Position numbers and translations under genes: made by a program. From a virus, in IMG/VR virus record IMGVR_UViG_3300025674_000143, positions 1 to 36,964 of that record: a stretch of DNA of 36,964 nucleotides. One strand, 5' to 3'. This document shows, in pieces, positions 2,602 to 15,107 of this stretch (positions within the stretch are counted from its first letter, which is position 1; each line of letters begins with the position of its first letter). A model generated the notes under the pieces. It saw nothing but the letters and a program-made list of their open reading frames with translations. It had not been told where the DNA came from and made no database searches.

Positions 2602-3663
2602 ATGGTAACATCTACTATTTCACGACAACAATATCAACGGGGTTGGTTCGATGTCCTTGATGACTGGCTTAAACGAGATCGCTTTATCTTTGTGGGTTGG
2701 TCTGGACTCCTTCTTTTTCCCACTGCTTATATGGCAATTGGTGGCTGGCTTACTGGTACAACGTTTGCTACAAGCTGGTACACCCACGGACTCGCGAGTA
2801 GTTACCTTGAGGGTGCTAATTTTCTCACAGCGGCTGTGTCAACGCCTGCTGACGCTATGGGTCATTCTCTTCTTCTACTTTGGGGTCCTGAGTCTCAGGG
2901 AGATTTCCAACGTTGGATCCAACTTGGGGGACTCTGGAATTTTGTGGCGCTCCACGGTGCCTTCGCCCTAATTGGGTTTATGTTGCGTCAGTTTGAACTT
3001 GCACGTCTCATCGGAATCCGTCCCTACAATGCAATTGCTTTTTCGGGTCCTATTGCCGTATTCGTTAGCGTATTTCTCATTTACCCACTTGGACAGTCAT
3101 CTTGGTTCTTTGCACCGTCGTTTGGCGTGGCAGCGATTTTCAGATTCCTACTATTCCTTCAGGGCTTCCATAACTGGACGCTCAACCCCTTTCACATGAT
3201 GGGTGTTGCGGGTATCTTAGGTGGAGCATTGCTCTCAGCAATTCATGGTGTGACTGTGGAGAACACTCTTTATGAAGACGGTGAACAAGCGAATACATTC
3301 AAAGCATTTGACTCAACGCAAGAGGAAGAAACTTACTCCATGGTTACGGCAAACCGTTTCTGGAGTCAGATCTTTGGGATTGCATTCTCCAACAAACGTT
3401 GGCTTCATTTCTTTATGCTATTTGTTCCTGTTATGGGACTCTGGACATCCAGCATTGGCATCATCGGTCTTGCTCTTAACCTCCGTGCTTACGATTTCGT
3501 CTCTCAGGAGATCCGCGCAGCGGAAGATCCAGAATTTGAAACGTTCTATACAAAGAACATCCTACTGAATGAGGGACTTCGTAACTGGTTAGCACCAGTC
3601 GATCAACCACATGAGAAGTTCATCTTCCCAGAAGAAGTATTGCCTAGAGGAAATGCTCTCTGA
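2602..3663 (+). CDS. psbD: Photosystem II D2 protein
   Basis: Full-length D2 at 353 residues, partner of D1 in the PSII reaction centre. The N terminus [20 protein letters not shown] is family-typical. [15 protein letters not shown] contains the redox tyrosine [12 protein letters not shown] holds the P680 histidine, and [11 protein letters not shown] and RWLHFFML hold the non-haem iron and QA-site histidines. Five membrane helices are apparent. There is no gap to the upstream ORF and a GGAGG site (2586-2590) lies before the start. Codon use is less C-rich than in psbA. Confidence 0.99.
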
Positions 3664-3775: not shown

Positions 3776-3800
3776 CGGAGGGTTCACACCCTCCTTTTTT
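3776..3800 (+). terminator. Rho-independent terminator after psbD
   Basis: GGAGGGT (3777-3783) pairs with ACCCTCC (3788-3794) around a TCAC loop, followed by six T residues. The next ATG (3801) begins directly after the T tract, the same arrangement as at 790/791. Confidence 0.9.
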
Positions 3801-4331
3801 ATGTGGTTGACACGCATACAATTGTTATCAAGAGAAGAGTGTCAAACGATCTCTGATTTGATTTTAGAGAATGAGGAAATGGTGAAATCACTTGGTCCTG
3901 ATATTTACACAGGAACTGCAGAAAATTCTTTAACTGGTAGATTTTATCTCTTCAATTACTTAAACATTCCAGAAATCAATACGATACTGAAACCAAAACT
4001 TCAGAAACATTTTAAAGGATATATTCAGTGCTGGGCAAATACTATTAGAAAGGGTGAGTATATTAAATCTCATAGTCATTCTAATAATCCTAGAGATGAC
4101 TATCTCTGTGCAAATATATTTTTATCTGGAAATACTAAACCTGGAACAAAATATTATCTTGACAAACCTGAGACAGTTGAAAACAATCTGGGTGAGATGA
4201 TTGTATTTCACTGTCACTTGGTTCATGAAGTTCAAACTTATCAAGATGATGAAGTAAGAATTAGTATAGGAATGGATATACTTCGTGATGTTGCTGATCC
4301 AGACAACCTTGATAGATACCACATCATCTGA
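3801..4331 (+). CDS. Putative 2OG-Fe(II) oxygenase-like protein
   Basis: A 176-residue protein with the double-stranded beta-helix signature of phage 2-oxoglutarate/Fe(II) dioxygenases. A histidine-rich segment is at residues 91-95 (HSHSN), followed by ANIFLSGN, a GEMIVFHCHLVHEV strand with the distal His at 142, and an Arg at 153 (DEVRISIG) suited to bind 2-oxoglutarate. The first half of the metal triad is H-x-H or H-x-N, not H-x-D. An upstream in-frame start at 3747 is rejected because it would run through the terminator. Substrate unknown. Confidence 0.65.
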   Translation: MWLTRIQLLSREECQTISDLILENEEMVKSLGPDIYTGTAENSLTGRFYLFNYLNIPEINTILKPKLQKHFKGYIQCWANTIRKGEYIKSHSHSNNPRDDYLCANIFLSGNTKPGTKYYLDKPETVENNLGEMIVFHCHLVHEVQTYQDDEVRISIGMDILRDVADPDNLDRYHII

Positions 4332-4346
4332 TATACTAAATTGAAG

Positions 4347-4406
4347 TTTGATTCCAAAAAAGGTCGGAAAAAAATTCCGGCAAAATTTTGACCCCTTTAC
4401 TTTTTT
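4347..4406 (+). repeat. 60-nt structured intergenic repeat, copy 1
   Basis: The first 32 nt (4347-4378) are identical to 13091-13122 and the remaining 28 nt align with few changes. It contains an outer GGTC/GACC pair flanked by A and T tracts, an inner CGGAA-A5-TTCCG hairpin, a CAAAATTTTG palindrome and a T-rich end (TTTACTTTTTT). It lies between the oxygenase stop and the glutaredoxin ATG at 4411, in the same orientation as the gene. It could act as a branched terminator, an RNA processing site or a mobile element. Confidence 0.85.
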
Positions 4407-4410
4407 CAAA

Positions 4411-4644
4411 ATGTTTACAGTTTATTCAAAAGAAAATTGCCCCTTCTGTACTAAAGTAATTACAGTTCTCAAGTTGACTAAACAAGAATATGAAGTCAAA
4501 AAGTATGGGGTTGACTTTGATCGGGATGAGTTCTATGATATGTTTGGTGAGGGTAGTTCATTCCCACAAGTCAAATACCTAGAACAAAATCTTGGAGGAT
4601 CTGCTTCCACCATTAAGTTTTTAAGAGAGGAAAAATTCATCTAG
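4411..4644 (+). CDS. Glutaredoxin (NrdC-type)
   Basis: A 77-residue glutaredoxin with the dithiol motif CPFC at residues 10-13 after strand FTVYSKEN. A cis-proline segment SFPQVKY and the GG motif (NLGGSAS) that contacts glutathione follow. Size fits T4 NrdC-like glutaredoxins, which reduce phage or host ribonucleotide reductase. The ATG follows the structured repeat by 4 nt, and no Shine-Dalgarno site is seen. Confidence 0.85.
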   Translation: MFTVYSKENCPFCTKVITVLKLTKQEYEVKKYGVDFDRDEFYDMFGEGSSFPQVKYLEQNLGGSASTIKFLREEKFI

Positions 4645-8161: not shown

Positions 8162-8323
8162 ATGCTGAAGATCAAAATTGAATATGATCTTCCAGTGTTT
8201 GATTCTGAAATTCACGATCCCGATAAAGTTTTTAGACTTATGACGTATCGTGGTGTAACGTATGCCAAATGGGTTTATTTAAAATCTAGAGGCATACAAA
8301 ACTGGAACGTTAGAGAGGGTTAA
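8162..8323 (+). CDS. DUF4278-like microprotein, 53 aa
   Basis: It carries one YRG unit, MTYRGVTYAKWVYLKSRG, near residues 27-44, after an acidic N-terminal half. This pairs it with the 7889 gene. AGGAG (8153-8157) lies 4 nt before the ATG. Its stop codon is inside the stem-loop of the terminator at 8312. Confidence 0.65.
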   Translation: MLKIKIEYDLPVFDSEIHDPDKVFRLMTYRGVTYAKWVYLKSRGIQNWNVREG

Positions 8324-8340
8324 CAACCCTCTCTTTTTTT
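8312..8340 (+). terminator. Rho-independent terminator ending the microgene cluster
   Basis: GAGAGGGTT (8313-8321) pairs perfectly with AACCCTCTC (8325-8333) around a 3-nt loop, with one further A-T pair, then seven T residues. The stem includes the last codons and stop of the 53-aa gene. Confidence 0.93.
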
Positions 8341-8678: not shown

Positions 8679-8704
8679 GAGGGGTTGACTACCCCTCTTT
8701 TTTT
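8679..8704 (+). terminator. Rho-independent terminator with promoter -35 in its loop
   Basis: GAGGGGT (8679-8685) pairs with ACCCCTC (8691-8697), loop TGACT, then seven T residues. The bases TTGACT (8685-8690) at the stem top and loop are also a promoter -35 box. Confidence 0.92.
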
Positions 8705-8713
8705 GCGTATAAT
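8685..8713 (+). promoter_or_regulatory. Sigma70-type promoter nested in a terminator
   Basis: TTGACT (8685-8690) and TATAAT (8708-8713) with 17-nt spacing. The -35 box lies in the terminator hairpin top and the spacer contains the T tract. Start near 8720 leaves about 16 nt before ATG 8736, with no Shine-Dalgarno site. Confidence 0.85.
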
Positions 8714-12790: not shown

Positions 12791-12837
12791 GAATTCACTT
12801 GAGAGAAAAACCATTGTACGTAACTGTCTTAGGTCAC

Positions 12838-13095
12838 ATGGAAAAAGAACTAGAAAAGGTCATTGAGAACAAATTCTTTTGTCCATCTCGATTCGCTCAA
12901 GAGATTGAAGTGCTTGTTCGTGATAACAAGGAGATGAATTATATCGATGCCATCGTGTTCTTCTGTGAGCATAACAATATTGATATTGAGAGTGTACCTA
13001 AACTGATCTCCAAACCTTTGAAGGAGAAGATCAAGTACGAAGCAATGGAACTAAACTTCCTTAAGCGCACCAGCCGTGCCAAATTGGTCTTTTGA
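12838..13095 (+). CDS. 33: Late transcription co-activator gp33
   Basis: An 85-residue protein with the pattern of T4-like gp33: FCPSRFAQEIEVLV, then NYIDAIVFFCEHNNIDIESV and LKEKIKYEAMELNFLKR. Gp33 bridges the sliding clamp gp45 and host RNA polymerase flap for late-promoter transcription, with gp55. T4 gp33 is 112 residues, so this one is short. The linkage to gp59 and gp32 matches the T4 33-59-32 gene order. An upstream TTG (12799) could extend it. Its stop lies inside the repeat. Confidence 0.8.
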   Translation: MEKELEKVIENKFFCPSRFAQEIEVLVRDNKEMNYIDAIVFFCEHNNIDIESVPKLISKPLKEKIKYEAMELNFLKRTSRAKLVF

Positions 13096-13150
13096 TTCCA
13101 AAAAAGGTCGGAAAAAAATTCCCCAAAATTTTTGACCCTTTTACTTTTTT
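13091..13150 (+). repeat. 60-nt structured intergenic repeat, copy 2
   Basis: Copy of 4347-4406: the first 32 nt are identical. The 28-nt second half starts CC where copy 1 has GGC, and has TTTTTGACCC where copy 1 has TTTTGACCCC. It spans the gp33 stop codon and ends at the base before the gp59 ATG. The AAAAGGTC/GACCCTTTT arms are kept despite base changes, which hints at a conserved RNA fold. Confidence 0.85.
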
Positions 13151-13747
13151 ATGATGCCCTTTGACACTTACAAAACGTACCTTGCTCTAAAAAACCACTT
13201 TACGAAAGATAACTACGATTATCACAAATATTGCGGAAAGGTCCGAGCGTCAGTAGACTCATTCTACAAGCGTAAGGACCGTTTTTGGTTTGAGAGAGTT
13301 TCCCGCAACAAAACTGATAAAGAAGTTCTTAACTACTTTGTTTCGAACTTTGTTATGGCTGATGATCCTGGCAATCTGTGGATTGGAGTTATTCAGCGTG
13401 AAGGTGATCGAAATTATACTGCGTGGCAAAAGCGCGTACAATCGCTTACATACGTCTTTAAAGAAGAGACGAATGGAATGTTCAGTGAATTCAAAGTAGA
13501 CGAGTCTTTTGACTGTTCTGCTGGACACCCGCCCATTTTGCGGAAATATCTTGCTGGTCAAATTTCCCTAGAAACGTTCATTATCCTTGAGCGCATTCTT
13601 GGGTTCCAAAACAAGTTTGACAAGAAACTGCAAGATCCTGTGTGGGAAACCGTAAGCAAGAAAATGAAAAAATATTCACCCTTCCTAAATATTGACGTAT
13701 TCCGTTATAAAAAACTTCTTAAAGAAGTTGTGCTAGGAGATTCATGA
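13151..13747 (+). CDS. 59: gp59, loader of gp41 DNA helicase
   Basis: A 198-residue protein similar in layout to T4 gp59 (217 residues). The N-terminal segment TYLALKNHFTKDNYDYHKYCGKVR matches T4 YKLYLMIKQHMNGKYDVIKYN; FWFERVSRN..., LNYFVSNFVM, and LAGQISLETFIILERILGF then follow. Gp59 loads replicative helicase gp41 onto gp32-coated forked DNA. Two tandem ATGs begin it, directly after the repeat's T tract, with no Shine-Dalgarno site. It overlaps the next gene by 4 nt. Confidence 0.88.
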   Translation: MMPFDTYKTYLALKNHFTKDNYDYHKYCGKVRASVDSFYKRKDRFWFERVSRNKTDKEVLNYFVSNFVMADDPGNLWIGVIQREGDRNYTAWQKRVQSLTYVFKEETNGMFSEFKVDESFDCSAGHPPILRKYLAGQISLETFIILERILGFQNKFDKKLQDPVWETVSKKMKKYSPFLNIDVFRYKKLLKEVVLGDS

Positions 13748-14135: not shown

Positions 14136-15107
14136 ATGTCTTTCGCAAATCTGAAGAAGCAATCTTCACTCGGTTCTCTCACTGCCAAACTGGTCAAAGA
14201 GGTCGAGAAATCTAACAACGGTGGTTCTGGTGGAGCGGACGAACGCTTCTGGAAACCTGAGATGGATAAGTCCGGTGTCGGTTCTGCTGTCATTCGTTTC
14301 CTTCCTGCTCCCGAAGGTGAAGATCTTCCTTGGGTCAAACTGTACTCCCATGCCTTCCAAGGTCCTGGTGGATGGTACATTGAAAACTCTCTGACTACTC
14401 TGGGTCAGAAAGATCCTGTTTCTGAGCACAACCGTGAACTCTGGAACAGCGGAAACGATAAGGATAAGGAAACTGTTCGCAAGCAAAAGCGTAAACTGCA
14501 ATATTATGCCAACATCTACGTTGTAAAGGATCCCGCTAATCCTAACAACGAAGGTAAAGTGTTCCTGTACAAGTTTGGTAAGAAGATCTTCGACAAGATC
14601 CTCAATGCCATGCAACCTGAGTTTGAAGACGAGACTCCTATCAACCCCTTTGACTTCTGGCAAGGTGCAAACTTCCGCCTGAAGATCCGCAAGGTTGAAG
14701 GTTACTGGAACTATGACAAGTCTGACTTTGCTCCTCCGTCACCTCTTCTTGATGATGACGATGCACTGGAAGCAATGTGGAAGAAGCAAAACTCACTTGC
14801 TGCTCTGGTCGCTGAAGATCAGTTCAAACCCTATGAGCAACTTGAGAAGCGTCTGAAGATGGTTCTGGGACAAAAGTCCCGTCCCGTGGTTCGTGACGAG
14901 TCTTATGAAGATGAGAGCGAAGGTCGTGGTAACTTCACCCCGAACTTCAATAGCCCTGACATCACAGGTACTCCAGTTCCTCCCGCAATGAAGGAAGAAC
15001 TGAACGCTCTGTCGTCTAATCAACCCGATTGGGCACAACCTTCTGCATCAGCATCTGCTGAAGAAGATGATGCTCTGTCTTACTTCCAAAAACTGGTTGA
15101 CGACTGA
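14136..15107 (+). CDS. 32: gp32 single-stranded DNA-binding protein
   Basis: A 323-residue gp32. The basic N-terminal SFANLKKQSSLGSLTAKLVKEVEK corresponds to the LAST-type cooperativity region. The OB core includes RFWKPEMDKSGVGSAVIRFLPAPEGEDLPWVKLYSHAFQGPGGWYIENSL in two parts, RKLQYYANIYVVKDP and NPFDFWQGANFRLKI. The C-terminal tail is acidic (SASAEEDDALSYFQKLVDD). No Cys is present where T4 gp32 binds zinc. Codons are rich in CTG, AAC and GAC, as expected for high expression. It coats ssDNA and works with gp59 next door. Confidence 0.95.
   Translation: MSFANLKKQSSLGSLTAKLVKEVEKSNNGGSGGADERFWKPEMDKSGVGSAVIRFLPAPEGEDLPWVKLYSHAFQGPGGWYIENSLTTLGQKDPVSEHNRELWNSGNDKDKETVRKQKRKLQYYANIYVVKDPANPNNEGKVFLYKFGKKIFDKILNAMQPEFEDETPINPFDFWQGANFRLKIRKVEGYWNYDKSDFAPPSPLLDDDDALEAMWKKQNSLAALVAEDQFKPYEQLEKRLKMVLGQKSRPVVRDESYEDESEGRGNFTPNFNSPDITGTPVPPAMKEELNALSSNQPDWAQPSASASAEEDDALSYFQKLVDD

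Follow-up and report, generated by a model that had tools for sequence, protein, structure and literature searches.

A dispersed element at gene ends of T4-like cyanophages and its possible role as a boundary cassette

A sequence of about 72 nt that occurs twice in the virus record IMGVR_UViG_3300025674_000143 (IMG/VR; the whole stretch of 36,964 nt was analysed and is called the window here) recurs among large cyanophages, typically directly behind the end of a gene on the same strand. The sequence evidence makes it fairly probable that this element is a dispersed boundary cassette of T4-like cyanophages, which would act as a weak or partial terminator, or as a signal that forms or protects the 3' end of the upstream transcript, and would so separate it from the next unit. 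Its position at gene ends, orientation, conservation, use of several sites, adjoining late promoters and the gain and loss of accessory genes at its edge argue for this reading; against it, most copies are without a strong stem and the primary sequence is kept beyond what an intrinsic terminator needs.

The repeat and its surroundings in the window

The two stretches first noticed, 4347-4406 and 13091-13150, lie on the same strand with 8744 nt from start to start and are identical at 55 of 60 positions, with an exact run of 32 nt common to both. When the whole window was dinucleotide-shuffled 100 times, exact direct repeats reached a maximum of 13-18 nt per shuffle. Because none exceeded 18 nt a chance origin is excluded; the repeat described in the sequence-only reading is therefore real. 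The length of 60 nt given there needs correction, as a profile of relatives shows a bigger conserved unit of about 72 nt that starts about 10 nt earlier. The placement near start codons was correctly seen: copy 1 stops 4 nt before the glutaredoxin ATG at 4411, and copy 2 abuts the gp59 ATG at 13151. The scores of model R1 in the following list are partly by construction, because this model was built from 15 sequences with the window among them.

4337..4407, + strand: element copy 1 (model R1, 74.1 bits, E 2.3e-22), in the gap from the stop of the 2OG-Fe(II) oxygenase gene to the start of the glutaredoxin gene
13080..13151, + strand: element copy 2 (model R1, 69.2 bits, E 8e-21), sharing the final 16 nt of gp33 and reaching the start of gp59
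4363..4381, + strand: possible central hairpin of copy 1, arms 4363-4369 and 4375-4381 (MFE fold; alone not above shuffles)
4401..4406, + strand: T6 tract at the 3' end of copy 1 (read from the sequence)
13145..13150, + strand: T6 tract at the 3' end of copy 2 (read from the sequence), with the gp59 ATG directly next
3801..4331, + strand: 2OG-Fe(II) oxygenase-like gene, ending before copy 1 (phrog_81, E 6.7e-13; ORF open from TTG 3747)
4411..4644, + strand: glutaredoxin / thioredoxin-domain gene, after copy 1 (phrog_22, E 4.8e-12)
12799..13095, + strand: gp33, late promoter transcriptional regulator, ending inside copy 2 (phrog_254, E 2e-29)
13151..13747, + strand: gp59, DNA helicase loader, after copy 2 (phrog_269, E 6.1e-69)

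A canonical terminator hairpin with T6 occupies 3777-3800 and is followed by ATG 3801 of the 2OG oxygenase gene, the same layout as that of the repeat before glutaredoxin and gp59; we infer ATG 3801 as the preferred start of this gene because it comes after a terminator. Two other hairpins were observed in the window. At 8312-8340 a terminator-like hairpin of 10 pairs has T6 behind it, and at 8679-8713 a strong terminator hairpin is followed by T7, with a TTGACT hexamer inside the loop and TATAAT 17 nt later; this composite of terminator and promoter looks closer to the classical PeSL (see below) than the repeat itself does. The stop codons of gp32 and the convergent gp53 abut at 15107/15108 with no spacer, at a gap in which many relatives hold the element.

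The central hairpin of copy 1 is preceded by an A6 tract (4356-4361), equivalent to U6 in minus-strand RNA, and the minus strand of this copy was flagged as terminator-like at 4379-4365. The conserved A6 before the core would thus place U6 behind a minus-strand hairpin, an arrangement that may fit a two-way terminator between convergent genes. A sigma70-like promoter match (10/12) at 4309-4337 ends at the left edge of copy 1, with none listed at copy 2. It would make copy 1 a 5' leader of glutaredoxin, although such matches are near chance level in the window (50 found versus 31.0 +/- 7.1 expected).

Occurrence and position relative to genes

Absence from all relatives would have counted against the sequence-only reading, and the opposite was found: with model R2, 19 records were searched whole and all 17 large cyanophage genomes among them carried the element, the best scores being partly by construction as several of these genomes supplied model sequences. 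At E<1e-4 there were two copies in 11 of the 17, one in five (S-SKS1, S-PM2, P-TIM68, P-SSM2 and S-CAM22) and three in S-SM2, so that 12 genomes have at least two and more than three were never seen. All copies of one genome share a strand, with some 4 to 23 kb between them when some records are taken as circularly permuted; in Syn9 the element sites are near 3082 and 16118. The same model found no copy in the whole genome of T4 and none above noise in P-SSP7 (only a 12.6-bit partial match, E 0.006). S-PM2 (AJ630128) has degenerate copies only, at 164906-164970 (20.7 bits) and 162664-162712 (14.6 bits), and the stem-loops near the S-PM2 ORFanage, as given in the sections of PMC4503421 used here, lie away from them.

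BLAST with the consensus matched 61 of 50,697 named phage records at E<=0.1, which by name are Synechococcus phages (30), cyanophages (15), Prochlorococcus phages (10) and uncultured marine viruses (six); with the window copy at E<=10, weak chance-like matches in unrelated phages also appeared. A pattern search had supplied 16 large virus contigs, and 15 of them contain one or two matches at E<=0.001. Presence in cyanobacterial genomes was rejected as far as one strict pattern reaches: its three genome-contig matches include none that is cyanobacterial, and with the model one of them (L287) gives a partial match of 18.8 bits and the other two score nothing.

The sample comprises at least 272 matches, reduced to at least 190 unique cores and to 189 copies with flanks. 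Most loci were fetched with degenerate patterns from the core, and the copies found by BLAST are independent of these patterns. The exact 32-mer stands in two rows among the 189 copies, those of L003 and of one window copy; the other window copy, identical to L003 over the region compared, had been merged with it.

An ORF of at least 40 aa on the + strand ends within -30..+25 nt of the left edge in 179 of the 189 copies, with homologue support for 150 of these ORFs and without it for 29. The remaining ten copies are at contig edges (four) or have a + gene that ends further upstream (six). At the right edge there is a convergent stop in 49 copies, a + start region in 87 and neither within the limits used in 53. 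Genes were called as six-frame ORFs with homologue support, and the neighbour tables include several spurious small antisense ORFs. The gp32/gp53 gap, where the two genes converge on the element, accounts for 35 copies and thus the bulk of the convergent cases. Between codirectional genes, the element follows a phrog_662 gene and precedes a phrog_1308 gene (18 copies) or a tail fibre gene (nine), follows a phrog_275 gene and precedes one for a hemagglutinin-domain protein (17), follows gp33 and precedes the 2OG oxygenase (16) or gp59 (nine), and lies between GC334 and gp26 (five) or CpeT and gp5 (four); in four more it stands between U283 and the reverse gene D290. Genes for tRNAs are also found downstream. 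The small phrog_662 protein (60 aa), whose function is not known, is encoded upstream in 42 of the 189 copies (L010, L203, L238 and others), with several different genes following.

The downstream genes are unrelated, in 18 families of which some are spurious antisense ORFs. Truly divergent placement was not found among the 189 copies, since two candidates also have a + ORF ending there and L127, which had been flagged separately, is codirectional; the divergent gp48/gp4 gap, which is present in these genomes, never carries the element. That the repeat belongs to the gene behind it, as its place before two start codons had suggested, is therefore not upheld: the neighbour kept across relatives is the gene whose end precedes the element, and in 49 of 189 copies the following gene is reversed. 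A fixed gene end upstream with a variable partner downstream fits a 3' element and not a leader, and judged from the sequences the element is a 3'-end or boundary module. A coding role was rejected, in agreement with the earlier view, as no reading frame is open in all 189 copies (at best 161 on the reverse strand and 132 on the forward strand).

A T4-type late promoter (NTAAATA-type) lies directly behind the element, from a few bases to about 17 nt after the T tract, in 26 of 30 late-gene contexts (gp26 7/7, gp5 4/5, tail fibre 12/15, D17 3/3). It is rare elsewhere (gp53 0/37, phrog_1308 gene 0/22, 2OG 1/21, hn 0/18, gp59 2/12, D290 0/7, grx 1/5) and occurs in 9/37 of the unlabelled or small groups (none 5/19, tRNA-anti 1/6, D362 2/4, D33 0/3, D97 0/2, other 1/3). 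Late genes would be expected to have such a promoter in any case; the telling point is that the element lies directly against it. The window, P-SSM2 and Syn9 each have an element at the end of a 2OG-type gene, and among 45 gp33-linked matches, which were not dereplicated, the 2OG gene is present exactly between element and gp59 in 19 and absent in 21.

Folding and column conservation

The description of the repeat as structured stands only in a weak form. The folds of the two window 60-mers are not more stable than those of shuffles (z -0.81 and -0.02), and RNA folding with covariation, put forward earlier as a check, gave no support: RNAalifold found no consensus pair on 15 copies or on 104 copies, and mutual information is dominated by adjacent columns, including an AAAA to TTTT block change in which the A/T block is kept. 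Conserved RNA structure as the main signal was rejected on the shuffle folds, RNAalifold and covariation. Both window copies do retain the GGTC/GACC pairing, but just nine of 107 dissimilar copies form all four of its pairs. A flanking-stem model (CCCT/AGGG or AGGG/CCCT) was also rejected at the level of the whole set.

There is nevertheless some co-dependence in pairing. Taken together, the folds of the 107 dissimilar copies are slightly more stable than those of shuffles (mean z -1.30 forward and -0.97 reverse), and in a chimera test real halves pair better than chimeric ones: for segment 69/100/123 and for the core hairpin of the T subclass (TTTT at columns 98-101), 0/200 chimera sets were as stable (z -4.0 and -3.9), and the A subclass core (z -0.3) shows nothing. 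Region-level tests gave z 0.4 to 2.8, with one pair at -2.2, and later chimera folds -0.3 to -4.2, all of these pairing values, like those for the subclasses, being inflated by relatedness among the sequences. At the 3' T tract, 21% of the 107 dissimilar copies have a hairpin at least as stable as -10 kcal/mol, versus 7% of shuffles, leaving 79% of the copies without one. The core hairpin is found in 27% of the 48 T subclass copies (chimeras 11%) and in 26% of the 54 of the A subclass (chimeras 17%), the latter with no T run behind, and a plus-strand terminator hairpin (-5 or better at a T run) in 38% and 6% respectively. Copies L038, L250, L220 and L002 are near-perfect terminators, and most copies are otherwise.

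The ends of the element are A-rich and T-rich, and the terminal T tract has 77-93% T per column over the 189 copies. Column conservation is high outside any stem and exceeds the need of an intrinsic terminator, with an upward bias in the core because loci were fetched partly with core-derived patterns. Intrinsic DNA curvature, for which phased A tracts were suggestive, was rejected at z 0.01 versus shuffles, as calculated from wedge values. In Rfam 15 the window matches were two tRNAs only, the element region searched down to E 10 gave matches that all fell below threshold, and six relatives gave one tRNA.

Competing explanations, known systems and significance

The conserved letters themselves, and not a hairpin, might be the signal. 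A sequence-specific DNA or RNA site for a protein of the phage or the host, for example a roadblock, a factor-dependent terminator or a point of RNase entry or processing, is a possibility we hold at roughly one chance in four. It would account for the conservation outside any stem, although this is inflated by the fetching of loci with core patterns, and for the lack of consensus pairs with covariation among neighbours only and the A/T block kept. Copies within a genome are more alike than random pairs across genomes (mean 0.716 versus 0.653; 0/2000 as high; 11 genomes including the window), as a shared binding factor predicts, but gene conversion would likewise make them so; the pairing co-dependence in the chimera tests and the four near-canonical terminators also speak against a protein site. 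Somewhat more tentative is the specific proposal of a factor-dependent, sequence-specific 3'-end signal of T4-like cyanophages, present in one or two copies at the borders of early and late blocks and read by a phage or host protein; the hosts of these phages are not known to have Rho.

A site for replication or recombination (an origin, a packaging site or a small mobile element), for which a gene end is only a safe landing place, appears unlikely. The usual one or two copies on the same strand within one region would suit it, as would sites that differ among phages, with 89% identity between copies at different sites in S-SSM4 and S-ShM2, and the 36 changes of slot label on a tree. The same tree (56 columns, 120 rows; the 69 of 189 copies without both slot labels dropped) shows a shuffled mean of 76, however, so that the slot is partly inherited and the same site seems to be passed on often, though not always. 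An origin would not be expected to keep so strict an orientation relative to the gene upstream or to be missing from divergent gaps. The curvature does not exceed that of shuffles, and no single site is occupied in all genomes. Least credible, and in our judgement very improbable, is a 5' regulatory leader of the gene behind, riboswitch-like or for translational control: both window copies, and 87 of the 189 overall, have a + gene start near the right edge, but the 49 copies that face a convergent stop have no gene to lead, the genes downstream are unrelated, and neither an Rfam match nor a covarying structure was found.

The boundary cassette is thus the explanation that we prefer, and in our best reading it is terminator-like and resembles the PeSL (promoter-early stem-loop) cassettes, which Arbiol in 2010 and Comeau in 2014 reportedly described for T4-type phages. 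Both are short and intergenic, are dispersed over several sites that are points of gene gain and loss (here the 2OG gene and the phrog_662 gene with its varied partners), and have a terminator-like part together with a promoter in some copies. Similar dispersed copies within one genome, another trait of PeSLs, were seen in the 12 genomes noted above. Unlike in PeSLs, no early promoter was found inside the element or behind it, systematic scanning having covered the window; a promoter, where present, is of T4 late type, the stem is weak or missing in most copies, there are one to three copies per genome and not many, and the primary sequence is strongly conserved. Because a demonstrated early promoter and a uniform stem are lacking, it is not filed as a member of the PeSLs. 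S-PM2 is reported as poor in PeSL density in the parts of PMC4503421 used here. With intrinsic (Rho-independent) terminators the element shares the gene-end position, the orientation of the upstream gene, the 3' T tract and, in a minority, a clear hairpin; it differs in being a conserved 72 nt with a mostly weak stem, whereas those at 3777, 8312 and 8679 in the window are short GC-rich hairpins with T6. The manA, wcaG and PhotoRC-II motifs, leader-type RNA structures near metabolic or photosynthesis genes according to the portions of Weinberg 2010 (PMC2864571) used here, are likewise non-coding elements of marine cyanophages, but the element matches no Rfam family. No description of it was found in Rfam or in the literature searched, a set that had the key PeSL papers and the Syn9 transcriptome paper outside it.

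If the element is such a cassette, transcription of the upstream gene would end, fully or partly, inside it, and the next unit would be shielded from read-through or fed by it; a late promoter immediately after the element could drive that unit, or the unit could converge from the other strand. Full termination would silence the next gene wherever an ATG or a tRNA is directly behind the T tract, because there is no room for a new promoter. RNA 3' ends at the element, and the mechanism by which they would form, are predicted from its layout, and recombination between copies may help to move genes.

In the literature searched, the transcript ends of cyanophages and the separation of their early and late blocks are little described. 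One element that can be recognised in every large cyanophage genome tested offers defined sites for the mapping of 3' ends, and it gives a sequence handle on modular gene exchange, with accessory genes gained and lost exactly at its edge.
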